A stretch of DNA of 64,000 bases, taken from contig NZ_LBIC01000006.1 of the NCBI RefSeq assembly GCF_001005725.1, positions 248,001-312,000 on the forward strand, read 5' to 3'. This document shows, piece after piece, positions 15,031 through 42,262 of the stretch (positions are counted from its first letter, which is position 1; the number at the start of each line of letters is the position of its first letter). The position numbers were made by a program, and so were the translations under genes. Under the pieces are notes generated by a model. That model was not told where the DNA came from. It saw only the letters and a list, made by a program, of their open reading frames with translations, and made no database searches. Origin of the DNA: Sphingobium chungbukense. GTDB taxonomy: Bacteria > Pseudomonadota > Alphaproteobacteria > Sphingomonadales > Sphingomonadaceae.

Positions 15031-15048
15031 GAAAGTTGTACAATTTTC
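15031..15048. promoter_or_regulatory. 18-bp dyad at the TetR start, candidate autoregulatory operator
   Basis: GAAAGTTGTACAATTTTC has a perfect TTGTACAA core and matching GAAA/TTTC ends, and stops two bases before the ATG at 15051. TetR-family repressors commonly bind such palindromes overlapping their own start. The position would also cover the promoter of the divergent aldehyde dehydrogenase operon. Confidence 0.5.
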
Positions 15049-15050
15049 TC

Positions 15051-24958: not shown

Positions 24959-27295
24959 TTACATGGAGTAACGCAGCGTCAGACCATATGTGCGCGGTTC
25001 GTTGTATACCGGGAAATAAAAGCCCAGACTCGACAGGTCGTTCATATCGGTGAGGTAACGCTTATTCCCGACATTGCGCACGAAGGCAGAGATGTCGAAA
25101 CCCGAGCTGTGCCGTATTCCAGCGTTCAGGTTCACTTCCCCACGACCTTCGCTGACCATGGGTGAAACATTGTTCGGGCTGAAATAGACCTTCGACTGGT
25201 ATGAGAAGTCCGCACCGATGCGGGCCGTCCAGTCCGCACTGAGTTCGGTGCTGTAGGTCGCACCGCCCGTCAACTGCCAGCGCGGAGCCTTGTCGAGGCT
25301 CTTGCCCTTGAGATCACCGCGGATGGCATCCATGAACTTCGCATATTCGGCATGCACATAGGCCGCACCGAAATTCAGGTCGAGGCCACGCACCGGTCGC
25401 GCGTGGATATCAACTTCAGCGCCGTAAATCTCGGCGTCCGCATTCTGCAGCCGCTGTAGCGGCACGCCGCCATTGGGATTTCCTTCAATGCCGAACACCT
25501 GCATGTTGCGGTAATCATAATAGAAGGCAGCCGCGTTGAAGCGTAGGCGGCGGTTCAGCAGATCGGTCTTCAGGCCGACTTCAAAGGCATCGATCGCCTC
25601 GGAATCGACCGCGTTGAATTCCAGATCGTTGAACAGGGCGCCTGTATTATAACCCCCCGCACGCACACCGCGCGAATAGCTGGCGTAGGTATTGACGGTC
25701 GGCGTCGCCTGGTAGGCCAGCGCGAGACGCCAGGTCGGCTTTCTGAGCGTCGTCACCCGTCGAGCCGGGCCATCCACCGCCAGACTTGCGGGGTCGGAAT
25801 CGACGAAGCCGACGAGACGCTGTGTCAACCGCGCCTGCGAATTGCTGTCTGCGTTTACCGGACCGCCGTAGGTTTGGAACCGCAGCTTTTTCTTATCATC
25901 GGTGTAACGCAGACCGGCAGTCATGGTGAGCTTGTCGGAAAGCTGATAATCGAACTGCGCAAAGATGGCCTTGCTGGTCGTGCGTTGGGCGAAATCGCGC
26001 TCCAGATAGACAACCGGGATGCTGGGATCGAAATAGGGCTGTGTGGGGTCCGGATTGAACATGCGCAGCACGCTGAAGTCCGTCAAACTGTGCAGAGTTT
26101 CGCGCAGATAATAAAGGCCGGCAACCCACTTGAGCGGTCCGTCACCATTGGAAGCCAGACGCAGTTCCTGGCTGAACTGTTCGGATTTCTCGGTCCAGAT
26201 CGGGCTGGAGGCGACGGCAAAGGGCGAGTAATCCTGGTCCTGATTAAGCTTGCGCTTGTTCCAGACGTAGCCAGTGACGGACGTCACGCTGATGCTGTCG
26301 CCCTTCCAGCTCATCTGCAAGCGATCGGCAAAGTTTACGAGAGATTCCGAATTGTTCAGGACATCGGTGTTGAACTCGTCGATATTCTCATTTGCCCGAT
26401 AACCGCTGATCGGGTTGACGCAGATCGTGCGGGCAAGAATTTCTGGACCAGTGCACGGCCGATTTGCGGTGGGATTGAAGGTGCCGAGCGACTGGTGACC
26501 CAGCGCCGACGATTTGCTCCTGCCGCCCTCGATCTTGTTATGAATCTCGATCATGTCAGTCGGCGTAAACAGAAATTGCAGGCGTCCGGCATAGCTATTG
26601 ATGCCGTTGATATCGCGGCCATCCTGAAGATTCACGGCCCAGCCGTCGCGCTTCTTGACGGTGACGGATACGCGCGCGGCAAGTTTATCGGGAATGATGG
26701 CGCCGCCGCCAGCGGCATCGAGGAAGATCTGGTCGAAACGTCCGCCGGTCACCGATGCAGAAAAATCCGGCTTAAAGGTCGGACGCTTGGTGGTATAGTT
26801 GATGACGCCGCCGGTCGTGTTGCGGCCATAAAGCGTGCCCTGCGGCCCTTTCAGCACTTCGACCCGATCAACGTCGAACACGGCGAAAAGCGCACCGACG
26901 CCCGAGTTGAGAAACACTTCGTCGACTGTAATGCCGATCGCACCGGACGATGCGGCGTTATAGTCATTGACGCCGACGCCGCGCAGGAAAATCGTCGGGT
27001 TCGACGCCTGGAAAAGCTGGTTGATCTGAAGACCCGGCACGGATTTGGTCAGGTCGAGACTGTTGCGGACGCCCTGTTGCGCCAGAATATCGCCGCTGAG
27101 CGCCGTAATGGCGATCGGAACCTTCTGAACATTTTCGCCGCGCTTCTGAGCCGTGACGATAATCTCGGCGATGCCGCCATCGTCGGTGGCGGCTTCCTCT
27201 TGCGCAAACGCCTGCCCGGCGGGGCTGAGCGCAAGCAGCGCCGCTATGCCGATGCGGCTGGCGACCGCCTTGATGTGATTACGCTGTTCCAACAT
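24959..27295 (-). CDS. TonB-dependent outer-membrane receptor
   Basis: A 778-residue receptor. Of three closely spaced ATGs the one at 27295 has the ideal GGGAGG site and begins MLEQRNHIKAVASRIGIAALL, a signal peptide ending at QAFAQ. Plug: EIIVTAQKRGENVQKVPIAITALSG, LDLTKSVPGLQI, TIFLRGVG, DRVEVLKGPQGTLYGRNTTGGVINY; barrel end GLTLRYSM. Transport only, no signalling domain. A 17-bp IclR-type operator lies 266 bp upstream at 27561, shared with the ThDP and CoA-ligase promoters, so it should import the same or a related substrate as the 37.3-39.7 kb receptor. Confidence 0.93.
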   Translation of the reverse strand: MLEQRNHIKAVASRIGIAALLALSPAGQAFAQEEAATDDGGIAEIIVTAQKRGENVQKVPIAITALSGDILAQQGVRNSLDLTKSVPGLQINQLFQASNPTIFLRGVGVNDYNAASSGAIGITVDEVFLNSGVGALFAVFDVDRVEVLKGPQGTLYGRNTTGGVINYTTKRPTFKPDFSASVTGGRFDQIFLDAAGGGAIIPDKLAARVSVTVKKRDGWAVNLQDGRDINGINSYAGRLQFLFTPTDMIEIHNKIEGGRSKSSALGHQSLGTFNPTANRPCTGPEILARTICVNPISGYRANENIDEFNTDVLNNSESLVNFADRLQMSWKGDSISVTSVTGYVWNKRKLNQDQDYSPFAVASSPIWTEKSEQFSQELRLASNGDGPLKWVAGLYYLRETLHSLTDFSVLRMFNPDPTQPYFDPSIPVVYLERDFAQRTTSKAIFAQFDYQLSDKLTMTAGLRYTDDKKKLRFQTYGGPVNADSNSQARLTQRLVGFVDSDPASLAVDGPARRVTTLRKPTWRLALAYQATPTVNTYASYSRGVRAGGYNTGALFNDLEFNAVDSEAIDAFEVGLKTDLLNRRLRFNAAAFYYDYRNMQVFGIEGNPNGGVPLQRLQNADAEIYGAEVDIHARPVRGLDLNFGAAYVHAEYAKFMDAIRGDLKGKSLDKAPRWQLTGGATYSTELSADWTARIGADFSYQSKVYFSPNNVSPMVSEGRGEVNLNAGIRHSSGFDISAFVRNVGNKRYLTDMNDLSSLGFYFPVYNEPRTYGLTLRYSM

Positions 27296-27599
27296 ATATC
27301 CTCCCATTCTGTTCATTGTGTCACTCCGCTCGCTTGTCTCTCGAGCGTGCAGCCGGGCTTTGGTTTCGACCGGAAACCGGGATGAAACCAAGGGTTCGCC
27401 AAGGCGCGCACCCTGACGTTGCGAAGCACCTCCGCTCGCTCCGAATCCGATTTCCTACCTGTCGAGATGACGGGTTTTCATTGTTCCGCCGACGGACTCC
27501 CAAGCCCCGCCACTTGGCGGGTATAGCACAAACTATCTTAAAATATCAAATATCAAATTTAATTCATATATTGAAATATCAAAATGCGTCAGACCTCCG
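27296..27599. other. promoter region of the TBDR gene
   Basis: These 304 bases lie between the receptor start and the stop of the hydrolase at 27600. The first 230 bases are G+C-rich without a gene; the last ~65 are A/T-rich and hold the operator at 27561 together with repeated ATATCAAA words at 27543-27557 and 27577-27583. Confidence 0.5.
27561..27577 (+). promoter_or_regulatory. IclR-type operator, site A
   Basis: AATTCATATATTGAAAT, a TTCA/TGAA dyad, identical over 14 bases to the inverted copy at 39806-39819 and matching 15 of 17 bases of the perfect copy at 31916. It sits upstream of the receptor gene starting at 27295. Confidence 0.6.
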
Positions 27600-28520
27600 T
27601 CAAAACAGGCGCTCGAGAAAGGCGCAGCCATTCTCGAGCGCCTGCCTTCCTTCGGGCACGATGCTGGAAAAGACCGGCCAGACGTGGAACATGCCTGGCC
27701 ACACTTCCAGGCTGGTGCGCACGCCATTCTGGGCAAGGTGATTGGCGAGCTGGATACTGTCGTCCAGCATCACCTCACTTTCGCCAATCTGGATGAGTAG
27801 CGGCGGCAATCCGCGGACGTCGGCATAGACCGGCGAGGCGTCCGGATCGTTGGGCCGGATCGATCCAAGGGCGGCGCGGGCCATCAGCACCAGTATGTCC
27901 CGCGTGCAGAGCGGATCGATGCCGTCACGCGTCTGGTAAGACGGGTTATTCATTTCCAGATTGCACCAGGGCGAGATCGCAACGCCACCTGCCGGGAGGG
28001 GAATGCCAGCGCGGTTCGCGCGCACCATCAGGGATACGGTCATCGCGCCACCTGCGGAATCCCCGGATATGGCGATGTGGCACGCATCGCCCACCGTGTC
28101 GACCAGCCATTTGTAAGCGGTGATGCTATCATCCAGCGGCGCGGGAAAGCGGTGTTCGGGCGCTAGGCGGTAGTCCGGCATGTAGACGCGGGCCCCCAGC
28201 ATTTTCGCATAATGGCCCGCTATACCATGATAGCCGTCCGGCCCGCCGCTGAAATACCCGCCGCCATGGAGATAGAGAAGCGTACGGCTGCCCTTCACTT
28301 CCTCGGGCGTCGCAAGAACCCCGCGCACTCCGCCCATATCCACTTCGGAAAAACGAACTCCCTCTGGCGCCGGATCGCGGGCCAGAAAATCATTGTAGCG
28401 CTTGCGCAGGTCGGCAACGACGGCCGGATCGACGGCTTCCCCCATCAGCAGGGGAGCGAATTCAAATGCAATCGCCTTCCAGTCCTCGATGCGTTGCAGC
28501 GTTGCTTCATTCAACGGCAT
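27600..28520 (-). CDS. HSL-type alpha/beta hydrolase (esterase)
   Basis: A 306-residue esterase of the hormone-sensitive lipase family (family IV): oxyanion motif HGGG at residues 85-88, PDYRLAPEHRFPAPLDD, nucleophile S155 in GDSAGGA, and the acid/histidine pair toward the end (GMFHVW near 280). It should cleave a small ester or lactone in the cytoplasm. It lies 55 bp after the aldehyde dehydrogenase stop, as the third gene of the operon ThDP enzyme > aldehyde dehydrogenase > hydrolase. Confidence 0.9.
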   Translation of the reverse strand: MPLNEATLQRIEDWKAIAFEFAPLLMGEAVDPAVVADLRKRYNDFLARDPAPEGVRFSEVDMGGVRGVLATPEEVKGSRTLLYLHGGGYFSGGPDGYHGIAGHYAKMLGARVYMPDYRLAPEHRFPAPLDDSITAYKWLVDTVGDACHIAISGDSAGGAMTVSLMVRANRAGIPLPAGGVAISPWCNLEMNNPSYQTRDGIDPLCTRDILVLMARAALGSIRPNDPDASPVYADVRGLPPLLIQIGESEVMLDDSIQLANHLAQNGVRTSLEVWPGMFHVWPVFSSIVPEGRQALENGCAFLERLF

Positions 28521-28575
28521 ATTCTTTTCCTCTCACCACAGGTCCGCGTTATCCTACCAAGCGCGGCCCGGCATT

Positions 28576-30072
28576 TCAGGCGACCTCCATTTGTCCAATT
28601 CCCGCATAATGGGTGGTCAAATATTCCTCGATTCCTTCGACTCCGCCCTCGCTTCCCAGACCGGAATGCTTGATGCCGCCAAACGGCGCGGCAGGATCGG
28701 AAATCAGGCCGGTATTGATGCCCAACATGCCTGCCTCGATCTGCTCCTGCAGGCGCAGAGCACGGCTCAGGTCGCGCGTATAGGCGTAGGATGCGAGCCC
28801 ATATTCTGTCGCGTTCGCCTGTTCGATCGCTTCCTGCTCGCTCGCGAAGCGGCTGATGGCCGCGACCGGACCGAATATCTCTTCCGAAGCGATGCGGGAG
28901 GCCGGATCGATGTCGCACATGATCGTGGGCGGATAGAAATTGCCTGGCCCGCCGGGAACGAAGCCGCCGGTGATGAGCGTCGCCCCGTCTTCTATAGCCT
29001 CGGTGACCAGCCTGTGCACATCCTCGCGCGCCTTGCCGCTGATCATCGGGCCGACGACATCATCTCCACCGGCCCCGCGCCCCATGCGAAGCGAAGAGAA
29101 TTTCGCGTGCAGGCGCCGCGTGAACTCGGCGGCCAGGGTCTCATGAACATAGAAGCGGTTTGCGGCGGTACAGGCCTGTCCGATATTCCTGAGCTTGGCC
29201 TGCATGGCGCCTTCCACCGCGGCGTCGAGATCGGCATCCTCGAAGACCAGGAACGGCGCGTTACCCCCCAACTCCATCGACGTGCGCAGGATGTTGGCGG
29301 ACGCGGCCGCCAACAATATGCGCCCCACCCGTGTCGATCCGGTGAAGGAGATTTTCTTCAGCCGTTTATCCGCAAGCAAGGGCATCATCACGTCGTGCGA
29401 CCGGGTCGTCGTGACGACATTGAGCACGCCGTCGGGCAGCCCGGCTTCCTGCATGAGCGACGCGAACAGCAGGGCGGTCAACGGCGTCAGTTCGGCCGGC
29501 TTCAGGACCATGGTACAACCCGCGGCGACGGCTGGTCCCACCTTTCGGGTGATCATGGCCAAGGGGAAATTCCATGGCGTGATGAGCAGGCATGGCCCAA
29601 CCGGCCGTTTGCTGATCAGGTGGCGCAAACCGCCGTTCGGCGCCACCTGGTAGCGACCATGTACATGGGCTGCCTCTTCGGAAAACCAGCGCAGAAACTC
29701 CGCCGCATAGGCGACTTCGCCTCGCGCCTCCTTAAGCGACTTGCCCATTTCCAACGAAATCAACAGGGCAAAATCGTCCGCCCGCCCGATCAGAAGGTCA
29801 AAGGCGTGCCGCAAGATGTCGCTGCGCGCGCGGGTGCTTTGCCCTGCCCAGCCCTTCTGCGCCCGATCGGCGGCAGCAAGTGCGTCCATCGCGTCCAATG
29901 GCGATGCGTCAGCGGCCGACGCTAGCGGAGCGCCCGTGGCCGGGTCATGGACCGTGAACGAACGGCCCTCGACGGCCTTGATCCAGCGTCCGCCGATAAA
30001 CAACCCGGATGGCAGGGACGCGAGCAGGCTCACCTCCCTTTCCGCCACAGCCGCTGGCTCATCATTGCTCAT
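28576..30072 (-). CDS. succinate-semialdehyde-dehydrogenase-type aldehyde dehydrogenase
   Basis: A 498-residue NAD(P) aldehyde dehydrogenase with general base E267 (MELGGNAP) and nucleophile C301 (GQACTAANRF). PWNFPLAMITRKVGPAVAAGCTMVLKPAELTPLTAL and the C-terminal AAPFGGIKHSGLGSEGGVEGIEEYL place it near GabD, which oxidises succinate semialdehyde and similar omega-oxo acids. It begins 10 bp after the ThDP enzyme, so the aldehyde it oxidises is probably the product of that C-C bond cleavage. The real substrate may differ from succinate semialdehyde. Confidence 0.88.
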   Translation of the reverse strand: MSNDEPAAVAEREVSLLASLPSGLFIGGRWIKAVEGRSFTVHDPATGAPLASAADASPLDAMDALAAADRAQKGWAGQSTRARSDILRHAFDLLIGRADDFALLISLEMGKSLKEARGEVAYAAEFLRWFSEEAAHVHGRYQVAPNGGLRHLISKRPVGPCLLITPWNFPLAMITRKVGPAVAAGCTMVLKPAELTPLTALLFASLMQEAGLPDGVLNVVTTTRSHDVMMPLLADKRLKKISFTGSTRVGRILLAAASANILRTSMELGGNAPFLVFEDADLDAAVEGAMQAKLRNIGQACTAANRFYVHETLAAEFTRRLHAKFSSLRMGRGAGGDDVVGPMISGKAREDVHRLVTEAIEDGATLITGGFVPGGPGNFYPPTIMCDIDPASRIASEEIFGPVAAISRFASEQEAIEQANATEYGLASYAYTRDLSRALRLQEQIEAGMLGINTGLISDPAAPFGGIKHSGLGSEGGVEGIEEYLTTHYAGIGQMEVA

Positions 30073-30082
30073 GCCTGACTCC

Positions 30083-31828
30083 TCACGCCCGCTCTAACGG
30101 GCGCGACGGGCGTGGCGCGGGCTCGATATCCATTTTTTCCTCTTGTCCATCAAAGATGCGCAGCGGCCCTATCGCCGTGGCACTGCTGATGACATCGAGC
30201 ACAGTGACCTTCCCAGAATTCATGGCTTTTTCAAGCGCCGGGGCGAAATCGGCGGGCTCCTCGATCCTTACGCCTTCAGCGCCGACAGAGCGGGCGACCG
30301 CGGCATGATCGACCTCGGCAAACCCGATCCCGGTCGTCGTGCGACCAAAGCCTAGTGCTTCGCCATGCTTCTGCATCACGAGCTGGGAATTGTTGAGCAC
30401 GATAAGCGTGAGCGGAATATCCTCACGAACGGCCATTTCCAGTTCCGCCCACACATGGGCAAAACCGCCATCACCGACAATGCCAACCACCCTCGCGTCC
30501 GGACGCGCCAATTTGGCGCCCATCGCATAGGGCAGGCCCCACCCGAGACCGGCCAGCCCGCGCGGCGTGAGTATGCGTTGCCCGGCGGCCTGCGCGGTCA
30601 GATAGGCCGTCACCCATACGGACGAATAGCTGGCATCGGCAACGACGATGTCGTTCGGCGTCAGCAGCGCATCGAGATCGCCCATCAGCCGCTGCGGCAG
30701 CAAAGGCTTTTCATCGGACTGGAGCTCCGGCGCGATCGCCTTGAGCCGCTCTTCCCGTGCCTGCACGATGGCGGCCTTGAGCGGGGCCGCCGCGCTCCGG
30801 CGCTTCGTCAAGTCCTGGGCCTTGAGCGCCTCGGTCAGATCGCCAATCGCCGAGCGCGCATCGCCCAGCAGTCGCACGGCCTCATAATTGCGGCTGATTT
30901 CCTGCGGATCGACATCGATATGGATGTAGGTCGCGTCGGGCGAGGTCAGCGACCAGGCATCCGTGCCGTTCTCATTCGTGCGCGTGCCGATGAACAGGAC
31001 GACATCGGCATCCCGCATCAAACCACGATGCGCCGCCGCCGGACCATTTTTGCCGACGATATTGGCTGCTACGCCCATGGACAGCGGATGGGTTTCATCC
31101 ACCGCGCCCTTGCCCATGAAGGTCGTCGCCACGGGGATTTCGACGACATCGATCAGCGCGGCCAGCTCTGCGGTCGCCTGCGCGCCGTGAACACCGCCCC
31201 CCACGATCGCGATCGGTGACCTGGCGATCGCCAGCAACGCAGCCGCCTGCTGAACGGCGGCACCCTCCGGTCGTGGCCTGTCCAGCGGGAAGCTGCCAAG
31301 ATCCTGCTTGCGCGCCGCCGTCCTGGTATGGGACGGCTGCATCAGCATGTCCTTGGCCAGCAGCAGAACCACCGGTCCGGGGCGTCCGCTGTTGGCGGCA
31401 ATCATCGCGAGATCGACATATTCCGCGGCGCGATCAGGATCGTCCAGCCTGCGGATCCACTTCGCGCACCCGGCGAACAAGGCAAAATGATCATATTCCT
31501 GAAAGGCGTTGCGATCGCGTTGCGATGCGGGAACCTCCTGCACCAGGACCAGCATGGGGATGGACGCCTTCAACGCCTCCGCCATCGGGGCGACCATCAG
31601 CGACGCCGCCGGACCGTTCTGCGCAGCAACCACACCAATGCGACCGGAAACGCGGGAATAGGCGTCGGACATGGCGCCCGCCGCATTCTCAGTCCGATAC
31701 AGAAGCTGGCGAATGCCTGCCTTTTCCACCGCCAGCATCAGCGCCGTCGGGTTGCTTTGCGCAAAAACGCTTTTGACGCCGTGGCGCACCAGCGCGGCGG
31801 CTATCGCGTCTGCAACACTATCAGCCAT
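30083..31828 (-). CDS. thiamine-diphosphate-dependent enzyme (acetolactate synthase / benzoylformate decarboxylase family)
   Basis: A 581-residue enzyme with the three-domain ThDP layout. The catalytic glutamate is E47 (YRTENAAGAMSDAYSRVSG), the central domain holds IVGGGVHGAQATAELAALI, and the ThDP/Mg motif runs from G452-D453-G454 to N479-N480 (IVGDGGFAHVWAELEMAV to IVLNNSQL). Family members make or break the bond next to a carbonyl: acetolactate synthase, 2-hydroxyacyl-CoA lyase, benzoylformate decarboxylase, cyclohexanedione hydrolase. A biosynthetic acetolactate synthase is unlikely because there is no small subunit and the gene is in a catabolic operon followed by an aldehyde dehydrogenase. 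Three copies of the IclR-type site or parts of it lie upstream. Confidence 0.85.
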   Translation of the reverse strand: MADSVADAIAAALVRHGVKSVFAQSNPTALMLAVEKAGIRQLLYRTENAAGAMSDAYSRVSGRIGVVAAQNGPAASLMVAPMAEALKASIPMLVLVQEVPASQRDRNAFQEYDHFALFAGCAKWIRRLDDPDRAAEYVDLAMIAANSGRPGPVVLLLAKDMLMQPSHTRTAARKQDLGSFPLDRPRPEGAAVQQAAALLAIARSPIAIVGGGVHGAQATAELAALIDVVEIPVATTFMGKGAVDETHPLSMGVAANIVGKNGPAAAHRGLMRDADVVLFIGTRTNENGTDAWSLTSPDATYIHIDVDPQEISRNYEAVRLLGDARSAIGDLTEALKAQDLTKRRSAAAPLKAAIVQAREERLKAIAPELQSDEKPLLPQRLMGDLDALLTPNDIVVADASYSSVWVTAYLTAQAAGQRILTPRGLAGLGWGLPYAMGAKLARPDARVVGIVGDGGFAHVWAELEMAVREDIPLTLIVLNNSQLVMQKHGEALGFGRTTTGIGFAEVDHAAVARSVGAEGVRIEEPADFAPALEKAMNSGKVTVLDVISSATAIGPLRIFDGQEEKMDIEPAPRPSRPLERA

Positions 31829-31858
31829 GCAACATCCTTTATTTCATTATTTGATTTT

Positions 31859-31875
31859 ATTGCATTATATGACAG
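31859..31875 (-). promoter_or_regulatory. IclR-type operator, site B
   Basis: On the minus strand CTGTCATATAATGCAAT. Sixteen bases, TTATTGCATTATATGA on the + strand (31857-31872), are identical to 39899-39914 in front of the CoA ligase. Confidence 0.55.
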
Positions 31876-31915
31876 GCAATGCAGGCTGTAAAGTGTCACA
31901 TGGAAATAATGAATT

Positions 31916-31932
31916 ATTTCATATAATGAAAT
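31916..31932 (+). promoter_or_regulatory. IclR-type operator, site C (perfect dyad)
   Basis: ATTTCATATAATGAAAT is a perfect inverted repeat (ATTTCAT / ATGAAAT around ATA). It partly overlaps a second perfect dyad, GAAATAAT-GA-ATTATTTC at 31903-31920. It is 88 bp upstream of the ThDP gene start. Confidence 0.65.
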
Positions 31933-32183
31933 ACCTTTGCGGGATACACCGGGGATAGCGGCGGCGGCGCAGGCCTGCTGCTCAAAGGAATCGAGCTTGG
32001 CGGTCGCGATGACGACCGAAGCGCGGGGCACGGTTAACCGAGAAGCGATCGGCCCTTCATCGTGCCGCTGCGCAAGGCGGCTTCGGCGTCACATCCGGCG
32101 CCACCGACGCGTCACGCCACGGTCGGAAATACGACCGGGATCGGACAGACACGCGTCAGGAAGGCAAGAAAGCGGTCGAACCG

Positions 32184-32951
32184 CTAACCTGCGGGAATGT
32201 TTTTCAGCAGGGCATTGGCATCGGCTGCCGCATTTTGGATCGCGCTGAAGAATTTTTCGCGTGCGTTTTCGAGCCGGAAGGTCGGCGTCACGATACCGAT
32301 GGCTCCGAAGATCGCACCGGATGAATCGAAGAGCGGCGCACAGATGGCGATGATTCCCTGCTCGGTCTGTTCGTCGGATGCCCAGCCGCGCTCCACGATC
32401 TGCGGAAATTCCTTTTCCAGCGCTTTTACGATGCCCTTCCTTTGCTTTTCCGGCAGTGCGGAAACACTGGCTTCCAACATCGCCGCGCGGGTTTTGGGAT
32501 CGAGATGCGCCAACACGACCTTGCCGGACGCGCGTTGATGCTCGTTGCCTCGCAGACCGACGCTCAAGCCCGAAACGCGGAGCCGATGCGACCCTTCCAC
32601 AAGCAGCTTGAGGACCACATTATTGTCCTCCCGGCGCGAGAACACCGCGCTTTCCATCGTCTCCGCCGCAAGGCGCTTGACGATTTCGGACAAGGACTTC
32701 TCGATATCCTGAAAACGCTGATAACCGCGGATCAGCACCTCGACACCGCCCCCCAATTCCAGCCCGCCATGCTCATTGCGCTCGATATACTGTTTGGCCG
32801 CGAGCGTTCGCAGCAGATGATAGCAGGTGGTGATGTTGAGGTTCAGGGCAGCCGAAACATCCTTGATATTCGGCGGCGTTGCTGCGTTCGCCACATATTC
32901 CAGGAAGGCGATCGCGCGTTCTACGGTTTGCAACGTGTAATTGTTGTCCAT
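32184..32951 (-). CDS. IclR-family transcriptional regulator
   Basis: A 255-residue regulator: N-terminal winged helix (residues ~5-65, LQTVERAIAFLEYVANA, IKDVSAALNLNITTCYHLLRTLAAKQYIER) and the IclR ligand domain (SGLSVGLRGNEHQRASGKVVLAHL, RGWASDEQTEQGIIAICAPLFDSSGAIFGAIGI). Such proteins sense aromatic acids or short carboxylates and act as repressors or activators of catabolic operons. It is central in the module and its own start is preceded by a TTTTCAATTAATGAACT dyad, so it is the most likely protein to bind the repeated 17-bp sites of this module. It may also be read from the upstream SDR gene, 69 bp away. Confidence 0.92.
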   Translation of the reverse strand: MDNNYTLQTVERAIAFLEYVANAATPPNIKDVSAALNLNITTCYHLLRTLAAKQYIERNEHGGLELGGGVEVLIRGYQRFQDIEKSLSEIVKRLAAETMESAVFSRREDNNVVLKLLVEGSHRLRVSGLSVGLRGNEHQRASGKVVLAHLDPKTRAAMLEASVSALPEKQRKGIVKALEKEFPQIVERGWASDEQTEQGIIAICAPLFDSSGAIFGAIGIVTPTFRLENAREKFFSAIQNAAADANALLKNIPAG

Positions 32952-32992
32952 ACCCCTGCTCTAGAACAAATGCCCTGTTCCGAGAACGCATT

Positions 32993-33009
32993 TTTTCAAT
33001 TAATGAACT
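32993..33009 (+). promoter_or_regulatory. IclR-type operator, site F (autoregulation)
   Basis: TTTTCAATTAATGAACT keeps the TTCA-N5-TGAA frame and 13 of 17 bases of site C. It is 42 bp upstream of the IclR start, a usual position for self-control. Confidence 0.45.
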
Positions 33010-33020
33010 TTCGCCTGCGC

Positions 33021-33827
33021 TCACAGAATCCGCGCAATGTTGAGCCCACCCGCCGTCCAGATCGGCTGGCCGGTCATGTAGGGGAGCGCGCCCGCCGCCA
33101 GCGCCGCCACGGCCTTGCCCACATCCTCCGGTTGCCCCTGCCTGGGAAGAGGCACGACGCCGTCCGCGATCAGCCTGGCGATCGTATCGTTTCCGACTTT
33201 TGCAGTCATCGGCGTTTCCATCAAACCGGGCCGGATTTCGTGGACATGGATTCCGGCTGCGCCCAGCCGGGCCGCGAAGAGCCTGGTGACCATGGACAGG
33301 GCCGACTTGGTGACGCAATATTGCGAGCGGTCGGTGAAGGAAAGCTCGGCCGCTATGGACGTTATGATGATGATCGACTTGTAGCTTTCCGGCGCAGCCT
33401 TCCCCGCCGACAGCAGCGCCTTCGCGAAGGCCTGCGTCAGGAAAAAGGTGCCGCGAAGGTTGATGTCGACCGATTTGTCGAATGCATCCGGCTGCAATTC
33501 CAGCAGATCGGTCAGGGGGCGCGCCGCAATACCGGCATTGTTGACGAGGCAGTCCAACCTGCCGAAATCGGCATCGATCGCATCCAGCACGGGGCCGTGA
33601 CGCGCCAGATCGCTGATGTCCATCTGATAATAGCGGCAGCGCCCCCCTGCCGCTTCAACCTGTGAAAGCTCGGCCGGCATGACGGGCGCATCGGGCAGGT
33701 CCACGATCGCCACATCGAACCCCGACTTGCCCAGTTCTAGAACGGCGCCCAGACCGAGGCCCTGCAAGCCCCCGGTGACGATCGCGACGGGGCGAGTTCC
33801 AGGACGATCATGTTCCATGTCCGACAT
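33021..33827 (-). CDS. short-chain dehydrogenase/reductase (SDR)
   Basis: A 268-residue SDR with the glycine loop TGGLQGLG (residues 18-25), an acidic VDLPD segment after the second strand (NAD preference), NNAG at 96-99, and S157, Y170, K174 (SQYCVTK). The tail TGQPIWTAGGLNIARIL is typical of dehydrogenases acting on sugars or cyclic alcohols. Sixty-six bases separate it from the cyclase-family gene upstream. It would supply the ketone that the cyclase-like hydrolase or ThDP enzyme could cleave; that link is inference. Confidence 0.85.
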   Translation of the reverse strand: MSDMEHDRPGTRPVAIVTGGLQGLGLGAVLELGKSGFDVAIVDLPDAPVMPAELSQVEAAGGRCRYYQMDISDLARHGPVLDAIDADFGRLDCLVNNAGIAARPLTDLLELQPDAFDKSVDINLRGTFFLTQAFAKALLSAGKAAPESYKSIIIITSIAAELSFTDRSQYCVTKSALSMVTRLFAARLGAAGIHVHEIRPGLMETPMTAKVGNDTIARLIADGVVPLPRQGQPEDVGKAVAALAAGALPYMTGQPIWTAGGLNIARIL

Positions 33828-33893
33828 AGCGGTTCTCCGGCTATCCGTCCGTCCGCGTCTTTCGCGCGAGCGGCGAACGGGTTCATTCAGCTT

Positions 33894-34856
33894 TCACTTG
33901 ATGACGACGGGATTGACCGGTGCCCCGGTGCCGTTCACGACCTTGAGCGGCGCTGCGACATAGAGGAAATCCCACTGGCCGTCCTCGGCGCAATCCGCCG
34001 CCAGCTTGCCCAACCCCGCCAGTTCGGTAAACGTCACACCCAGATTGCGCATGAGCGCTCCATGGAGAATGAGCAACGCGCCGTTTACAGGGTCAACGGT
34101 TACCTCGTTGGCGATGGTATCCGTCACCAGATTGGGAATCTCCATCTTGTGGAACCAGTCGACCAACTCGGGGGAATAGGTAAGGCCCGGCTCGATGAAG
34201 TCCTTGTAGAATTCGTCGGCGCCCAGCCGGTAAAAGGATTCGAGGAAGCCGGTCCGGATGACGACGATATCGCGCTTGCATATTTCCGTGCCCTGCACCT
34301 CCGCGGCTTTCAGCAGATCTTCGTGCGTAAAGGTCTCGCCCTTGTCGAGACACTCCTTGCCGCGCAGCCGGGCAATGTCGAGCAGGACGCCCCGCCCGAC
34401 AACGCCCTTTTCCCCGATCGGCTGCACACTGGCCCTGTCGAGCCCGCCGATGGTCGATCTGGCATCATATCCGTTGTAGAGCTGCCCGTCATACCAGACG
34501 TGACCCAGCGCGTCATATTGCGTGGAGCCCTGGAGATAGGCGGAAATCATATCGTCGGCATAATGCTGGCCGCCAGGAAACTGGGGAGCCTTGCCGCACA
34601 GCCAGTGCCCCTCGTCGATCACCTGGCTGCGTTCGGCGCCCCTGCGGCCCGGCCATACCGGATCGCCCTTGGGATCCGCCATCGGCAACTGCAAGGTGAA
34701 CACCTTGCCGGATCGCACGGAGCCCAGGGCGGCGAGCGCCTGCTGCGGCCCCAGATAATTGAGCGCGCCGACTTCGTCGTCCGCCCCCCATTTCCCCCAG
34801 TTCTTCGGACAATCCTTCAACAATTCCGATACCGCGGGGGAAACCTCATGCGTCAT
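33894..34856 (-). CDS. cyclase-family hydrolase (kynurenine-formamidase-like fold)
   Basis: A 320-residue member of the cyclase family (PF04199 type), metal-dependent hydrolases including kynurenine formamidase, isatin hydrolase and enzymes opening cyclic diones. NWGKWGADDEVGALNYLGPQQAL at the start and the core STQYDALGHVWYDGQLYNGYDA are characteristic. In the usual metal motif TH-x-D-A-x-x-H the first histidine is glutamine here (T-Q-Y-D-A-L-G-H); I believe this also occurs in a bacterial subgroup, but it bears on metal binding. It lies between an aldehyde dehydrogenase and an SDR in the large minus operon, suggesting hydrolytic ring opening of a cyclic intermediate. Confidence 0.82.
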   Translation of the reverse strand: MTHEVSPAVSELLKDCPKNWGKWGADDEVGALNYLGPQQALAALGSVRSGKVFTLQLPMADPKGDPVWPGRRGAERSQVIDEGHWLCGKAPQFPGGQHYADDMISAYLQGSTQYDALGHVWYDGQLYNGYDARSTIGGLDRASVQPIGEKGVVGRGVLLDIARLRGKECLDKGETFTHEDLLKAAEVQGTEICKRDIVVIRTGFLESFYRLGADEFYKDFIEPGLTYSPELVDWFHKMEIPNLVTDTIANEVTVDPVNGALLILHGALMRNLGVTFTELAGLGKLAADCAEDGQWDFLYVAAPLKVVNGTGAPVNPVVIK

Positions 34857-34905
34857 GTCTCTATCTCACAGTCATTAGGGTAGCGGGCACTGGAGCAGCG
34901 GGCGA

Positions 34906-36336
34906 TCATCCGGCGACGGGGGTCAATCTTCTGCTCGTGATGGTCTGCGTGTTGGTGAACTCCAGCAGGCCTTCCATCCCGTGCTCCACACCCACGCCGG
35001 ATTGCTTGTGGCCGCCAAAGGGCGCGTTGGGAAGGAATGCGAACATCTCGTTGATCCAGACGGTGCCGGTCTGCAAACGCTGGCCGATCTCCCGCGCCTT
35101 GTCGACATCGTTGGACCAGACCGATCCACCCAGCCCGGACTCGCTGTCATTGGCGCGCGCGATCACATCGTCGAGATCATCATATTTCAGCAACGGCAGC
35201 ACCGGACCAAAGGCCTCTTCCGTCACCACGCGCGACTTCTCCGGCGGATTGTCGACGATCGAGATCGGAATGAAATAGCCAGGGCTGTCGGACACTTCGC
35301 CGCCAAGCAGGAACTTCTGCCCATTGGCACGCGCGTCATCGAGCAGATCCTTGACCTTTTCGAACTGCATCCTGTTCTGGACCGGACCGAGATCGACGCC
35401 CTGCTGCGAACCATCGCCGACGGTCACGGTCCTGGCGAACTCGACCAGCTCGCGCGCGACCGCGTCATAGATGCTGGAGTGGATATAGAGGCGCTTGATC
35501 GCGACACATACCTGCGCGCTGTTGAAAAACGCGCCCCAGAACAAAGCCGGCGCAATCGCCTTGGGATCGACATCGGGCAACACGATCGCGGCATCGTTGC
35601 CGCCCAGTTCCAGCGTCACCCGTTTCAGCGTCTTGGCCGCGCTCTCCATCACGCGCTTGCCGGTGGCCGTGGACCCGGTGAAGGAGACCTTGCCGATATC
35701 CGGATGGTCCGTGATCCACTGTCCCAGCTCATTGCCGCCGGAAACGATGTTGAGCACACCGGGCGGCAGGATGTCGAGCAGCAGTTCACCGAGCTTCAGC
35801 GTGGTCAGCGGCGTGAAGGGCGAAGGCTTGAGCACCATGCAATTGCCCGCCAGCAGCGCCGGCGCCATCTTCCAGATCGCCATGAGCAAAGGCGCGTTCC
35901 ACGGCGCGATCGCACCGACGACACCGATGGGCGTATGACGCACCTCGACCCGCCGCTCCTCACTGTCTTCGATCACCTCGACGGGCAGATCGAACTGGGC
36001 CACGCCATGGCACCATTGAGAGGCTACATCGACTTCCCATTCGGCCCCGCCATGGGGACGCTCCTGCTCGGCGGTGAAGATCCGGGCCAGCTCGGCCTTG
36101 TTTTCCTGCAATCGGCCGGCGATCGCGAGAATTTTCTTGCGCCGATCGTCCATGGAGAGCGCCGCCCATGCGGGAAAGGCCGCCTTGGCGGCGGCAACCG
36201 CCTCATCGAGCTGCGCCTTGCTGGCGTCCGGCACCCTGGCGATGACTTCCTCCGTCGCGGGGTTCAGCACATCGAGGCCAGCGCCGCCGGTGACTTTCCG
36301 GCCGTTGATGGTCATCACGAAATTGTCGAATCTCAT
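34906..36336 (-). CDS. NAD-dependent aldehyde dehydrogenase
   Basis: A 476-residue aldehyde dehydrogenase. General base E243 (LELGGNDA), nucleophile C277 (NSAQVCVAIKRLY), cofactor site GAIAPWNAPLLMAIWKMAPALLAGNCMVLKPSPFTPLT. It lacks the lysine-rich oligomerisation tail of some classes and resembles broad aliphatic/aromatic aldehyde dehydrogenases of catabolic islands. It is 27 bp after the alpha/beta hydrolase and 49 bp before the cyclase-family gene, in the operon headed by the receptor at 39731. It probably converts the aldehyde formed after ring or chain cleavage into an acid for the CoA ligase at 40 kb. Confidence 0.88.
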   Translation of the reverse strand: MRFDNFVMTINGRKVTGGAGLDVLNPATEEVIARVPDASKAQLDEAVAAAKAAFPAWAALSMDDRRKKILAIAGRLQENKAELARIFTAEQERPHGGAEWEVDVASQWCHGVAQFDLPVEVIEDSEERRVEVRHTPIGVVGAIAPWNAPLLMAIWKMAPALLAGNCMVLKPSPFTPLTTLKLGELLLDILPPGVLNIVSGGNELGQWITDHPDIGKVSFTGSTATGKRVMESAAKTLKRVTLELGGNDAAIVLPDVDPKAIAPALFWGAFFNSAQVCVAIKRLYIHSSIYDAVARELVEFARTVTVGDGSQQGVDLGPVQNRMQFEKVKDLLDDARANGQKFLLGGEVSDSPGYFIPISIVDNPPEKSRVVTEEAFGPVLPLLKYDDLDDVIARANDSESGLGGSVWSNDVDKAREIGQRLQTGTVWINEMFAFLPNAPFGGHKQSGVGVEHGMEGLLEFTNTQTITSRRLTPVAG

Positions 36337-36363
36337 CGGGCAGTTCCTCTCTGTGTTCCGGGG

Positions 36364-37218
36364 TCAGGCGCCAGCAGGAGCGGGCCGTATTTCGAGAGCG
36401 CGCTGAGCGCTGGCCATGAAATCAAGCGTTGATGGGATGACGACGTCCGGCACCTCTAGGATCGGGCTGTGTCCCACCCCTTCGAGCCTTGCGAGCTTGG
36501 CGCCGGGAATATTGTTCACAACTTCATGCGTCCATTCCTGCGGACGCGCGACATCCTCGTCGCTCAGATAGACAAGCGTCTGCGCCTTTACCTGGGGAAG
36601 CAGCGATACCGCGCTGGGCCGCTCCACCACGCCATGCATGGCGGCCCAGGTAGAGGGGGCAAGCCGTCCGATATGCAGGCGCCAGTGGTCAAGCATCGCC
36701 TGCTTTTCCGGATTCGACCGGGTTGTCGCGCCGAACATGATGGACATCATCATGTCCAGATCGCCACCGACAAAGCCGGTGGCATAGGTCCGGTCCAGCA
36801 GGTCCGTGAAATGGGCCTTCTGATCGTCCGGCTCACCGCGCACGGAGGACCCCATCATCACCATGGAGGCGCACAGATCCGGTCGGCGCGCCGCGATCCG
36901 AACCGCAACGTCCCCGCCCATCGACGCTGCTATCAGATGAACCGGCGGCAACCCCAGTGTCTCGATCAGGGCGATCATGTCATCCGCGCAGCAATCCATG
37001 GTCACCACGGCTTGGGTAGAGGGCGCGCTGCTGCCTTGCCCGCGGAAGTCCGGACGGATCACCCGGAATCGCCCCTTGGCCGCAGGGACGAGCGCGTCGA
37101 ACATCCGCCCGTCCAGAAAGAGAGAGTGGAGACACAGGATCGGCGGCAGATCCGTTTCCCCCGTGTCATCGACCCAGAGGATCGTGTCGCGCACCGGAAT
37201 GCCTGTGCCACCATCCAT
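36364..37218 (-). CDS. alpha/beta hydrolase
   Basis: A 284-residue hydrolase; the ATG at 37218 follows GAGGAGAG, while a longer frame to 37275 has no such site. ILCLHSLFLDGRMFD, DFRGQGSS, the nucleophile in AASMGGD and the histidine in GVGHSPILEVPD define the fold. Of the size and type of esterases, lactonases (3-oxoadipate enol-lactonase-like) and meta-cleavage hydrolases. It is the first enzyme gene after the receptor, 59 bp away, so it likely acts first on the imported molecule or on its lactone intermediate. Confidence 0.87.
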   Translation of the reverse strand: MDGGTGIPVRDTILWVDDTGETDLPPILCLHSLFLDGRMFDALVPAAKGRFRVIRPDFRGQGSSAPSTQAVVTMDCCADDMIALIETLGLPPVHLIAASMGGDVAVRIAARRPDLCASMVMMGSSVRGEPDDQKAHFTDLLDRTYATGFVGGDLDMMMSIMFGATTRSNPEKQAMLDHWRLHIGRLAPSTWAAMHGVVERPSAVSLLPQVKAQTLVYLSDEDVARPQEWTHEVVNNIPGAKLARLEGVGHSPILEVPDVVIPSTLDFMASAQRALEIRPAPAGA

Positions 37219-37277
37219 ATCCGAACTCTCCTCTTTCCTGTCTTCCTGCCCATGCGCGCACAATGGCGCGATCACGC

Positions 37278-39731
37278 TCAGAATTTATAGCCCAACGTTA
37301 CACCATATTCGGACGGACGGCCCGTGTAGCGGACGATAGTGTCGAACGCCCGCAGGCTGTTCGTCCAATAGTGCCTATTGGTGACGTTCCGACCCCAGAC
37401 CGTCAGCTTCCAGCGCTCGTCGGCAGACTGCACGCCGGCCCGAAGGTCGAGCGTCGCATAGCCCTTGATCGTTGCGTCCTTCTTGTCCTGCCCGCCCAGT
37501 TGCGGAGAACCGTAGCTCTTCGTCTGCGCGCGCACGCCCCCGCCCAGGAACGCTTCGACCGTCCCGGTCAGGGGGAACAGATAGTCCAGGCTTGCCGACC
37601 CGGCCAGCTCCGGCGCGAACGGCAGACGAGCGCCCTTGAACGAACTGAAGACCGGGAACAGCAGCCCACCGACATTCTGCGCGCCGACAATGCCGCTGAA
37701 CGTCTTGATCCTGGTGTTCAGATAGGTTCCCGCCAGCCGGACGGTCAGGCCCCGCGTCGGCACCAGCGTCATGTCCATTTCCGCGCCCCAGATACGGGAC
37801 TTGGGGATGCTCACCAGCTTTTCGAGTGCGCCGAACAGCGGATCCACCGTCTTGCCGCGCGTCTGCTTGTTGGCATAGTCGTAGTAGAACGCCGCCCCAT
37901 TCCACACGACGCGATTGCCCAGCAGGTTGGACTTGAAGCCGAGTTCATAGGCCGTCAGCTTCTCCTGCGGCACGGGATAGAATTGCTCCTGGCTGGCGGC
38001 GTTCACCAGTGGGAACGCCCCACCCTTGAAGCCCCGGGACATGTTGGCATAGATCAGCAAGTCGTCGTTGGGCTTGAAATCGATACCGACACTCCAGGGG
38101 ACATTATCCTCCTTGAGCTTGGCTTTATACGTGCCCGATACACAGTTGTTGGGATCGACCGACACCGATTGCCCCGGAACTACGGGAGTATAGGTGACAC
38201 CGGGACAGAATAGCGGCACATAGACCGCCGGCATGAGGACATTGAAAAAGTCCGTCAGGCCGAGCGCGCCGGGGATAGGTTCGACATAGCCCGGCGTGTC
38301 GTAAACCCGGCTGGCCGCCGTCCGGCTGGAATCGGTATAGCGGATGCCGGCCTTCAACTTCAGCCGCTCGCTGAGGTCATATTCCATGTTACCGAACACG
38401 GCCCACTGCTTGAAGACCTGGCGCGTATCGAGCGTGTTGGCGGTAAAGCCATCGCGAAAACCGGTCGATGCAAACGGATAGATCGCATCGATCCGTTCAT
38501 AACTGGCCGTGCGCTGATAATTGCCGCCGACCATCCAGCGCAGCCCCGACCCGACATCGTTGCCGGCAAGCCGAAGCTCCTGACTGAAGTCATTGGCACG
38601 GGCGGGGTTTGCAGCCTGCTCGAAGGCCGGAAGGTCCGTACCCGAATAGGAGGACGCCTTGCGCTGACGCAGATTGCTGTAGGCGGTCAAGGACGTGAGG
38701 GTGATCGTGTCGGACAGGTCGATATTGGCCGTCAGCGCCGTCTGGTAGAAGCGGTCGTCGCGATAGGGCCGGTAATCGGGGTCCCAGTTCGCCGCACGGT
38801 TGTTGTCCGGCGCGCCCGGAATGAGAAGCAGCGCGAAATCGGGAGGAACCACCTGGCCGAAGGTGACGGACCCGACGGGGGCCTGAAGGTCCGCGGGCGT
38901 CGTTTGACGCGCGAGCTGCGGCGCCTGCGGATCGGACTTGTTCAGCCAGCCGTTGAGATTGAGGACGAAGCCCATCCCCTCGCGCGGTTGCCAGTCGAGC
39001 AGGATGCGGCCGGCAAGTTCATCGGTCTTGCCGAGCTTGTCCCTGCGGGTATAGCTATATTGCCATTCGTCGCCCTGGCTGACCTTGACCGCGATACGCC
39101 CTTTCAGCGTGTCCGACAGCGGCCCGCTGATGTGCGCTTCGCCACGGATCGTGTTGAAACTCCCGAAGCCAAGCTCGATACCGGCATCCAGATCGTTGGT
39201 GGGCTTGGCTGCGATGAGGTTGATCGCGCCGCCGGTCGCGTTGGTGCCGAAGAGCGTGCCCTGCGGGCCCTTGAGCACTTCGACGCGCTCCAGATCGAAC
39301 GCCGTGAGCGCACCGAACGCCGGAACCGCAAGAGGCAACTGGTCGATATAAAGCGCAACGTCGGGCGCGGCACTCAGGGTGCTTTCGAAGAAGCCCACGC
39401 CGCGAAGCGTATAGACCGGCGTTCCGCTCGGGCTGGGGGTGATGTCCAGGCCCGGAACGACCTTGGCCAGATCCGTCACCGCGTTCACGCCCGCATTGTC
39501 GAGCGCGGCGCCATCAAAAGCCGAAACGCTCAGTCCGACGTCCTGTAGCTTCTGCTCGCGCTTTTGCGCCGTCACCACGATTTCCCCAAGCCCTCCATCT
39601 TCCTGGGGCACGGCGGGAGCTCCACCCTGAGCGAAAGCGACCGCGGGCATGACGAGGGAGAGTGCGCTGCACAGGCCGAGCCGCCGCAGGGGGCCGGTTT
39701 GAAAAGGGGTGCGCGAGCGTCGGTTAATCAT
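37278..39731 (-). CDS. TonB-dependent outer-membrane receptor
   Basis: An 817-residue receptor; the ATG at 39731 follows GAAGGAGGG and starts MINRRSRTPFQTGPLRRLGLC with a signal peptide ending at AFAQ. Plug: EIVVTAQKREQKLQDVGLSVSAFDG, VTDLAKVVPGLDI, PVYTLRGVG, LERVEVLKGPQGTLFGTNATGGAINLI; barrel end GVTLGYKF. The plug is closely similar to that of the 16.5 kb receptor (PVYTLRGVGFFES / PVYTLRGVGLYDS), so they probably recognise related molecules. It heads the operon receptor > hydrolase > aldehyde dehydrogenase > cyclase > SDR (> IclR) and is divergent from the CoA ligase, with three IclR-type sites in between. Confidence 0.94.
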   Translation of the reverse strand: MINRRSRTPFQTGPLRRLGLCSALSLVMPAVAFAQGGAPAVPQEDGGLGEIVVTAQKREQKLQDVGLSVSAFDGAALDNAGVNAVTDLAKVVPGLDITPSPSGTPVYTLRGVGFFESTLSAAPDVALYIDQLPLAVPAFGALTAFDLERVEVLKGPQGTLFGTNATGGAINLIAAKPTNDLDAGIELGFGSFNTIRGEAHISGPLSDTLKGRIAVKVSQGDEWQYSYTRRDKLGKTDELAGRILLDWQPREGMGFVLNLNGWLNKSDPQAPQLARQTTPADLQAPVGSVTFGQVVPPDFALLLIPGAPDNNRAANWDPDYRPYRDDRFYQTALTANIDLSDTITLTSLTAYSNLRQRKASSYSGTDLPAFEQAANPARANDFSQELRLAGNDVGSGLRWMVGGNYQRTASYERIDAIYPFASTGFRDGFTANTLDTRQVFKQWAVFGNMEYDLSERLKLKAGIRYTDSSRTAASRVYDTPGYVEPIPGALGLTDFFNVLMPAVYVPLFCPGVTYTPVVPGQSVSVDPNNCVSGTYKAKLKEDNVPWSVGIDFKPNDDLLIYANMSRGFKGGAFPLVNAASQEQFYPVPQEKLTAYELGFKSNLLGNRVVWNGAAFYYDYANKQTRGKTVDPLFGALEKLVSIPKSRIWGAEMDMTLVPTRGLTVRLAGTYLNTRIKTFSGIVGAQNVGGLLFPVFSSFKGARLPFAPELAGSASLDYLFPLTGTVEAFLGGGVRAQTKSYGSPQLGGQDKKDATIKGYATLDLRAGVQSADERWKLTVWGRNVTNRHYWTNSLRAFDTIVRYTGRPSEYGVTLGYKF

Positions 39732-39802
39732 ATTCCCTCCTTCAGCGTGGCCGCTGCAAGCCATCTTCTTGAATGGGGCGTTCGTACCAACGCCCTCACG
39801 AT

Positions 39803-39836
39803 AGGTCAATATATGAATTTGTGCATATATTGAAAT
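39803..39836. promoter_or_regulatory. IclR-type operators, paired sites D1 and D2
   Basis: Two 17-bp sites head to head: D1 on the minus strand (AATTCATATATTGACCT, 39819-39803) and D2 on the plus strand (TGTGCATATATTGAAAT, 39820-39836). They directly abut, 72 bp upstream of the receptor start, and could hold two dimers side by side. Confidence 0.6.
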
Positions 39837-39900
39837 AGACGGAAACGTGGATGAGCTCCCCATATCCCGTGCGGACCAGGCTGGCGATCCAATGGGGATT

Positions 39901-39917
39901 ATTGCATTATATGAATA
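39901..39917 (-). promoter_or_regulatory. IclR-type operator, site E
   Basis: On the minus strand TATTCATATAATGCAAT, 88 bp before the CoA-ligase ATG. It lies in a 16-base identity with the ThDP promoter (39899-39914 with 31857-31872). The surrounding 39900-39945 is strongly A/T-rich. Confidence 0.6.
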
Positions 39918-40004
39918 TTTTTGTATATTTGATATATCAGCCGGCCAGTTGTTCGTGACAAAAGTGAGCCGGAGCGGAAAGATCTGACCGGAAAGGACGC
40001 CATC

Positions 40005-41632: not shown

Positions 41633-42262
41633 ATGGCAAAAGCGGAAAACACCGGCAATCAGGATTCCATCGATTTTTATTTCGATTTCATTTCACCGTT
41701 CGGCTGGATCGGCGCGGAGCGGATCGGAACGCTGGCGCGCCGATTCGGTCGCGGCGTTCGTTGGCACCCCTTTCTTCTCAAGGCGACCGTCGTCGATACG
41801 ATGGGCCTTCCCCCCTTACTCGAAACGCCGCTCAAGGGCGATTATTTGCGCCGCGACCTGCCGCGCAGCCTGCGCTATCATGGTCTTGGCATAGCGGAGG
41901 CCCCCGTCTTCACCTTCTCATCCGTCGTCGCCGCGCGTGCCACACTCTGGGTCCGCGACACCGCTCCTCAGAGGACCGAAGATCTTGTCCTCGCCCTCTA
42001 TCGGGCGCACTGGTCGCAAGGCCATGACATTTCGGAAATCGATACAGTGCTCGCCATCATCGGGGAACTGGAGTTGCCGCAGCATGATGCAAGAGCGGCT
42101 CTTCAGTCGGAGACCATCAAGGCCGCATTAAGAAACGAGATCGCCGACGCCATCGCGGCGGGCGTGTTCGGCTCTCCTACAACGATCATCGATGGCGAAA
42201 TGTTCTGGGGATCCGACCGCTTGGACATGATGACGCAATGGCTCGAGACCGGAGGTTGGTGA
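41633..42262 (+). CDS. 2-hydroxychromene-2-carboxylate isomerase-like (kappa-class GST fold)
   Basis: A 209-residue DsbA/thioredoxin-like protein: IDFYFDFISPFGWIGAERIGTLARRFG at the start and AAGVFGSPTTIIDGEMFWGSDRLDMMTQWL at the end are diagnostic. The family needs glutathione and includes the naphthalene-pathway isomerase NahD; many relatives sit in other aromatic or cyclic catabolic clusters. FISPFGW replaces the FDF-S-P-Y pattern with a serine available to activate glutathione. Coupled to the CoA ligase, it may isomerise a cis double bond or a CoA-linked intermediate. The precise reaction is not predictable. Confidence 0.85.
   Translation: MAKAENTGNQDSIDFYFDFISPFGWIGAERIGTLARRFGRGVRWHPFLLKATVVDTMGLPPLLETPLKGDYLRRDLPRSLRYHGLGIAEAPVFTFSSVVAARATLWVRDTAPQRTEDLVLALYRAHWSQGHDISEIDTVLAIIGELELPQHDARAALQSETIKAALRNEIADAIAAGVFGSPTTIIDGEMFWGSDRLDMMTQWLETGGW

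Follow-up and report, generated by a model that had tools for sequence, protein, structure and literature searches.

Tandem 17-bp palindromes and an IclR-family regulator in a catabolic module of Sphingobium chungbukense

For group 1 of the IclR family, a subgroup of binding motifs termed WTT-11-AAW has the consensus WTTYCRYW3RYGRAAW (Suvorova and Gelfand 2021, PMC8222616). The main text of that study also predicts tandem IclR sites with centres 18-22 nt apart (mainly 19-21) in 94 orthologous groups and describes tetramers and tandem sites for the family. In Sphingobium sp. SHPJ-2, the IclR-family repressor PheR has been characterized by deletion, which raises expression of a catabolic operon and of several TonB-dependent receptor genes (PMC13273656). 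Here we analyze a 64,000-nucleotide stretch of Sphingobium chungbukense (assembly GCF_001005725.1, contig NZ_LBIC01000006.1, positions 248,001 to 312,000; hereafter the window), in which the gene for a 255-residue IclR-family protein lies inside a module of receptor and enzyme genes preceded by tandem 17-bp quasi-palindromes (Table 1). This protein is very probably the dedicated regulator of the module.

The best box in the window, ATTTCATATAATGAAAT, fits WTTYCRYW3RYGRAAW at 17/17 positions as compared by eye, and the other boxes deviate at one or more positions. A preliminary description of this DNA had cited binding to palindromes of about 17 bp as known for IclR proteins, in agreement with the subgroup WTT-11-AAW as presented in the main text of PMC8222616. 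The resemblance to that subgroup extends to tandem palindromes and to small, mainly catabolic regulons, but the distance between centres (pitch) is 17-18 bp here, and 19 bp in an Embleya plasmid (below), as against 18-22 nt there; the pitch-18 pairs lie within the published range and the pitch-17 pairs are one base short of it. The words TonB, thiamine pyrophosphate, and acetolactate are absent from that main text. The three-box operators of PcaU, PobR, and HmgR likewise combine an IclR-family palindrome with an extra repeat and have catabolic targets, but their addition is a third half-box and their core is of the GTNCG type, whereas here there is a complete second palindrome and a TTCA core (PMC8222616, main text). 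PheR is similar in being a Sphingobium IclR regulator tied to catabolism and TonB receptors; its 44-bp footprint, GCAACG core, and phenanthrene-degradation operon target set it apart on the published description (PMC13273656). The mechanism proposed below is itself already known; the regulon is well supported by cross-species comparison.

Paired boxes and their specificity in the genome

The seven 17-mers quoted in the preliminary description are all present letter for letter at the coordinates and on the strands given for them, and all lie between genes (27296-27599, 31829-32183, 32952-33020, and 39732-40004). Most of them belong to a larger element in which the centres of two 17-bp quasi-palindromes are separated by 17-18 bp; partner boxes beyond those quoted, at 27543, 31841, 31899, and 39919, complete the paired structure. 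Three of the five operators in the window have a pitch of 18 and two a pitch of 17. Because the strong boxes are all paired apart from the one before iclR, the single-site picture was revised: the 17-mers are real, but the operator unit is probably the tandem pair.

Boxes were scored with a symmetrised 17-bp matrix refined exclusively on intergenic DNA of three relatives, a Phenylobacterium metagenome-assembled genome (MAG), Sphingopyxis witflariensis, and S. jiangsuensis, whose IclR proteins are 57-61% identical to that of the window. The long stretch before the first TonB-dependent receptor gene (TBDR1) was limited to its last 450 bp, and no spacing rule was imposed except non-overlap. On its three training loci the matrix returned 27 boxes, 24 of which make 12 pairs (11 of pitch 18 and one of pitch 17), the other three being weak lone matches. 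Soft expectation-maximization on the relatives' intergenic DNA converged to a generic A/T model comprising ~159 "sites" and was abandoned in favour of the thresholded symmetrised matrix.

This relatives-trained matrix found eight boxes of ≥18 bits in the window (the seven quoted and that at 31841) versus one in 393,883 bp of background, which consisted of 20 stretches of the same genome, two of them picked for off-module boxes. Five tandem composites in the window score ≥36 bits (36-41.5); none in the background reaches 26 bits, the best there being 24.9. For each of the three main intergenic regions, none of 1000 dinucleotide shuffles scored as high as the observed composite. Single boxes are enriched in the genome but are not specific. 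The consensus TTTCATATAATGAAA with up to three mismatches gave 34 rows in the whole genome versus 8 for the reversed control; the module holds 4/6 of the rows with at most two mismatches and 8/34 overall, and 26/34 lie outside. At the 22 off-module single-box loci examined (four of the 34 rows had no locus for the composite check), the top composite scored 19.6 bits, and no further regulon member is proposed.

A second, sequence-only profile (R1), covering both strands, was built from 14 of the relatives' 16 operators, with the two of pitch 17 omitted and no window sequence included. Three of the 14 come from Sphingobium subterraneum, which is close to the window; the matrix from the other three relatives is the stricter evidence. 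On the whole 5.5-Mb genome R1 gave 10 rows, corresponding to five places on both strands, all in the module, with E values from 5.7e-4 to 1.65 and scores of 23.2, 18.6, 16.2, 14.4, and 12.6 bits. Matches to many unrelated promoters, which the preliminary description had named as grounds for rejecting the regulon, were not seen: among the 150 of 276 first-look candidates that were scored, this profile from other species found nothing elsewhere at E ≤ 10.

Conservation with the regulator

Loci were sought by scanning genome contigs with the IclR protein. Four were confirmed and are used in the comparisons of relatives: S. subterraneum (IclR 91% identical), the Phenylobacterium MAG (61%), S. witflariensis (58%), and S. 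jiangsuensis (57%). The IclR gene is present in all four by construction, having been the query. Gene order is also kept in all four. The genes for a 2-hydroxychromene-2-carboxylate (HCCA) isomerase-like protein and a CoA ligase diverge from the second receptor gene (TBDR2), which is followed by genes for a hydrolase, an aldehyde dehydrogenase (ALDH2), a cyclase, a short-chain dehydrogenase (SDR), IclR, a thiamine diphosphate (ThDP) enzyme, a further aldehyde dehydrogenase (ALDH1), a hydrolase, and TBDR1; the exception is the Phenylobacterium MAG, in which cyclase and SDR are missing at that place.

Tandem operators precede the same gene groups in 4/4 relatives, which supports the proposed regulon of the IclR protein, two receptors, and enzymes. 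The four loci contain 16 operators, 14 of pitch 18 and two of pitch 17, only these two pitches having been admitted. In a plain identity test the operator stretch ranked above every outside stretch in 7/9 region-locus pairs. The segment LNITT[CS]YHLLRTL, which from the family we take to be the recognition helix, occurs in the helix-turn-helix (HTH) region of 6/6 IclR proteins compared. The regulator was found in 2/94 genomes of the genus, own genome included (E ≤ 1e-30), and solely in the own genome among 298 sampled family genomes (E ≤ 1e-30) and 385 class genomes (E ≤ 1e-50). The module so delimited is thus a rare one, and the regulator and operator kept together would mark genes of one pathway.

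An Embleya plasmid (Actinomycetota; 69.6% G+C in the stretch compared) carries a gene for a 49% identical IclR protein adjoining one for a 63.5% identical ThDP enzyme, the rest of the module being absent. In this 30.7-kb stretch the four top boxes are all found in the 130 bp that precede the ThDP reading frame and make two pairs of pitch 19, with scores of 33.2 and 28.0 bits. The next-best pair over pitches 14-30 scores 14.1 bits, and when the 358 bp ahead of the ThDP gene were shuffled, 0/2000 trials reached 33.2 bits. Two rhizobial ThDP homologues (54-55% identical), with no IclR match in the fetched stretches, gave no pair exceeding 11 bits over pitches 17-19 and no R1 match. The plasmid ThDP matches comprise 153 records, of which Embleya and 2 of the 152 others were compared. 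The IclR protein matched two plasmid records at E ≤ 1e-20, Embleya and a Rhodococcus one (33%).

We tentatively suggest that the IclR-ThDP pair may have moved together with its tandem operator, as one unit, between Alphaproteobacteria and Actinomycetota. In a small number of sphingomonads and in one Phenylobacterium it would then have come to control an undescribed pathway of uptake and catabolism, with CoA ligase and ThDP carboligase/lyase acting on a bulky imported compound. If so, the operator would help to identify the inducer and further pathway genes.

The rhizobial homologues (loci L066 5831-17656 and L067 5829-17656) stand in a cluster with Liv-type ATP-binding cassette (ABC) transporter, FabG-like, and shikimate-dehydrogenase-like genes, apparently a different setting for the same type of ThDP enzyme. 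In Embleya, luciferase-type monooxygenases are encoded ~3 kb past the IclR gene (locus L039 18697-21272), one of them 34% identical to a flavin mononucleotide (FMN) monooxygenase of the window, and a short stretch upstream of the ThDP gene (L039 10728-11042) is 44% identical to part of aldehyde dehydrogenases and is perhaps a remnant.

Proposed repression and alternative explanations

The IclR protein is predicted to bind tandem operators of the WTTYCRYW3RYGRAAW type at four promoters, most likely repressing them. The two palindromes suggest two dimers, which would probably cooperate on each operator. The operon borders we infer would place TBDR2-hydrolase-ALDH2-cyclase-SDR(-iclR) under promoter 1, the divergent CoA-ligase gene and the HCCA-isomerase-like gene under promoter 2, ThDP-ALDH1-hydrolase under promoter 3, and TBDR1 under promoter 4. 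Repression would occur by occlusion of RNA polymerase, and an imported compound or catabolite would release the repressor. It is considered the most likely mode because the likely ThDP promoter has its -10 covered by an operator. In the window this promoter reads TTTACA-N17-TATAAT (one mismatch to consensus), with the -10 within box 31859-31875. The corresponding promoter in S. subterraneum is TTTACA-N17-TATAGT; TTTACA also stands ahead of the operator in the other three relatives, with poorer -10s and 3-4 mismatches in all.

Several observations weigh against the proposed regulon model. Promoter calls at TBDR2 are weak: TTGAC within the operator is a possible -35, with 3-4 mismatches overall in the window, the Phenylobacterium MAG, and S. 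witflariensis, and no promoter within four mismatches was found there in S. subterraneum or S. jiangsuensis. With gene starts as aligned, the operator lies ~110-280 bp before TBDR1 and, in the Phenylobacterium MAG, S. witflariensis, and S. jiangsuensis, ~160-260 bp before the ThDP gene; such distances are greater than simple occlusion would predict, barring long leaders on the transcripts. No counterpart of the window operator 31899-31932 was seen in the four relatives, and the identity test fails for the Phenylobacterium MAG before ThDP and for S. jiangsuensis before TBDR1. The pitch of 17-18 coincides with or falls short of the lower limit of the range in the main text of PMC8222616, and 2/2 Embleya operators have a pitch of 19, indicating that spacing is not fixed; that pitch was admitted only after the single boxes had been seen, and R1, fixed at 35 bp, misses the Embleya sites. 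Finally, in 149 family genomes R1 gave matches at E ≤ 0.6 in 8 of the 148 others, the top one (16.5 bits) exceeding three of the five window sites. The argument for the weaker window sites therefore relies on the matrix, pairing, and conserved places and not on R1 score alone.

There is a modest chance that the regulon is the same and the IclR protein acts as an activator. PcaU and PobR are IclR-family activators, and PbaR is reportedly another. Activation would suit TBDR2 and the CoA-ligase gene, where the operator lies on or ahead of a possible -35, as well as some of the relatives, in which operators stand far ahead of ThDP and TBDR1, but not the window operator 31841-31875, within which the best promoter has its -10.

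It is unlikely that single 17-bp operators are the functional units, with a direct one before iclR providing autoregulation, as had been proposed in the preliminary description. The box before iclR does stand out as a single site: 0/1000 shuffles of that 69-bp stretch reach its 22.6 bits, R1 without filtering gives it 9.4 bits (E 0.19), and a weaker box (16.4 bits) occurs at the same place in S. subterraneum, alone of the four relatives. However, the remaining strong window boxes are all paired. The best composite in the 69-bp stretch scores 22.3 bits and is equalled by 1/1000 shuffles, and no conserved tandem operator was found before iclR, with 0 matches of ≤4 mismatches there in four relatives. 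The earlier placement of the regulator inside its regulon holds by position, perhaps through read-through, but not as regards a demonstrated operator of its own, the box being unpaired and poorly conserved.

It is highly improbable that the boxes are just A/T-rich promoter sequences of the usual kind (-10 boxes, UP-like DNA), resembling one another in a G+C-rich genome and sharing no regulator. They do hold TATAAT-like letters, one coincides with a good -10, and single boxes recur outside the module. Against this explanation stand the confinement of strong composites to the window relative to the 393,883-bp background, the lack of any other R1 place at E ≤ 10 among the candidates scored, the failure of shuffles in all three regions, and the same places in 4/4 relatives. 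We likewise give very little credence to binding by another regulator, for example the LysR-type (22530-23429) or TetR-type (15036-16313) protein of the window: a LysR homologue (68%) also lies beside the module in the Phenylobacterium MAG, at its other end (locus L034 1410-2294), but the fetched stretches of S. subterraneum, S. witflariensis, S. jiangsuensis, and Embleya contain no LysR match (TetR was not searched for in relatives), the IclR gene is present with boxes in those loci (partly by construction), and the 17-bp motif, like the tandem spacing, agrees with that published in the main text of PMC8222616 for IclR proteins.

Genes of the module and their neighbours

The regulator is assigned to the IclR family by PF09339 (34.2 bits, cut-off 22) and PF01614 (74.9 bits, cut-off 24). 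It falls below every NCBIfam curated cut-off for known IclR equivalogs (BhcR, PcaR/PcaU/PobR, KdgR, AllR, and IclR), its top scores being 80.7 bits with NF045644 BhcR (cut-off 350) and 72.7 with TIGR02431 (cut-off 284.75). The tandem element would supply a precise operator for this regulator, whose matches to NCBIfam IclR equivalogs all fall far short of the cut-offs, and an operator-reporter pair could help find the inducer.

Table 1. Features of the module, with positions in the window
Feature	Position	Strand	Structure or basis
TBDR1, TonB-dependent receptor	24959..27295	-	Pfam
Tandem operator before TBDR1	27543..27577		boxes 27543-27559 + 27561-27577, pitch 18; 40.3 bits; counterpart in 4 relatives
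Alpha/beta hydrolase, hormone-sensitive-lipase type	27600..28520	-	Pfam/NCBIfam comparison
ALDH1, aldehyde dehydrogenase	28576..30072	-	Pfam
ThDP enzyme, acetolactate-synthase-like	30083..31828	-	NCBIfam NF004772 above cut-off
Tandem operator before ThDP gene	31841..31875		boxes 31841-31857 + 31859-31875, pitch 18; 41.5 bits; counterpart in 4 relatives
Second tandem operator before ThDP gene	31899..31932		boxes 31899-31915 + 31916-31932, pitch 17; 40.3 bits
IclR-family regulator, 255 aa	32184..32951	-	Pfam HTH_IclR + IclR_C above cut-off
Lone box before iclR, doubtful standing	32993..33009		22.6 bits, without partner
Short-chain dehydrogenase (SDR)	33021..33827	-	NF009386 above cut-off
PF04199 cyclase-type hydrolase	33894..34856	-	Pfam
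ALDH2, aldehyde dehydrogenase	34906..36336	-	Pfam
Alpha/beta hydrolase	36364..37275	-	Pfam
TBDR2, TonB-dependent receptor	37278..39731	-	sub-cut-off NCBIfam matches to TonB receptor models; conserved in 4 relatives
Tandem operator, TBDR2 side of divergent region	39803..39836		boxes 39803 + 39820, pitch 17; 40.5 bits; counterpart in 4 relatives
Tandem operator, CoA-ligase side	39901..39935		boxes 39901-39917 + 39919-39935, pitch 18; 36.1 bits; counterpart in 4 relatives
Acyl-CoA ligase	40005..41627	+	sub-cut-off NCBIfam matches to CoA-ligase models
DsbA-fold protein, HCCA isomerase-like	41633..42262	+	Pfam DSBA; PDB 3fz5, E 1.5e-32

Comparison of the module proteins with Pfam, NCBIfam, and PDB indicated enzyme classes only and no substrate. 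These classes would be compatible with uptake through the two receptors together with, in some order, hydrolysis, aldehyde oxidation, CoA activation, and a ThDP reaction. In literature searches for such a cluster, which did not reach supplementary tables, no paper was recognised as describing the module.

The second operator before the ThDP gene is perhaps a recent gain. Beyond TBDR1, the hydrolase gene 23563-24765 has a counterpart beside TBDR1 in S. subterraneum only, and the gene for the LysR-type regulator adjoins it; the TetR-type protein is encoded elsewhere in the window. On the other side, the module is followed at 42497-48246 by genes for a third TonB-dependent receptor, an NtaA/DmoA-family FMN monooxygenase (TIGR03860, above cut-off), and a flavoprotein, at which the relatives-trained matrix detected no tandem operator.

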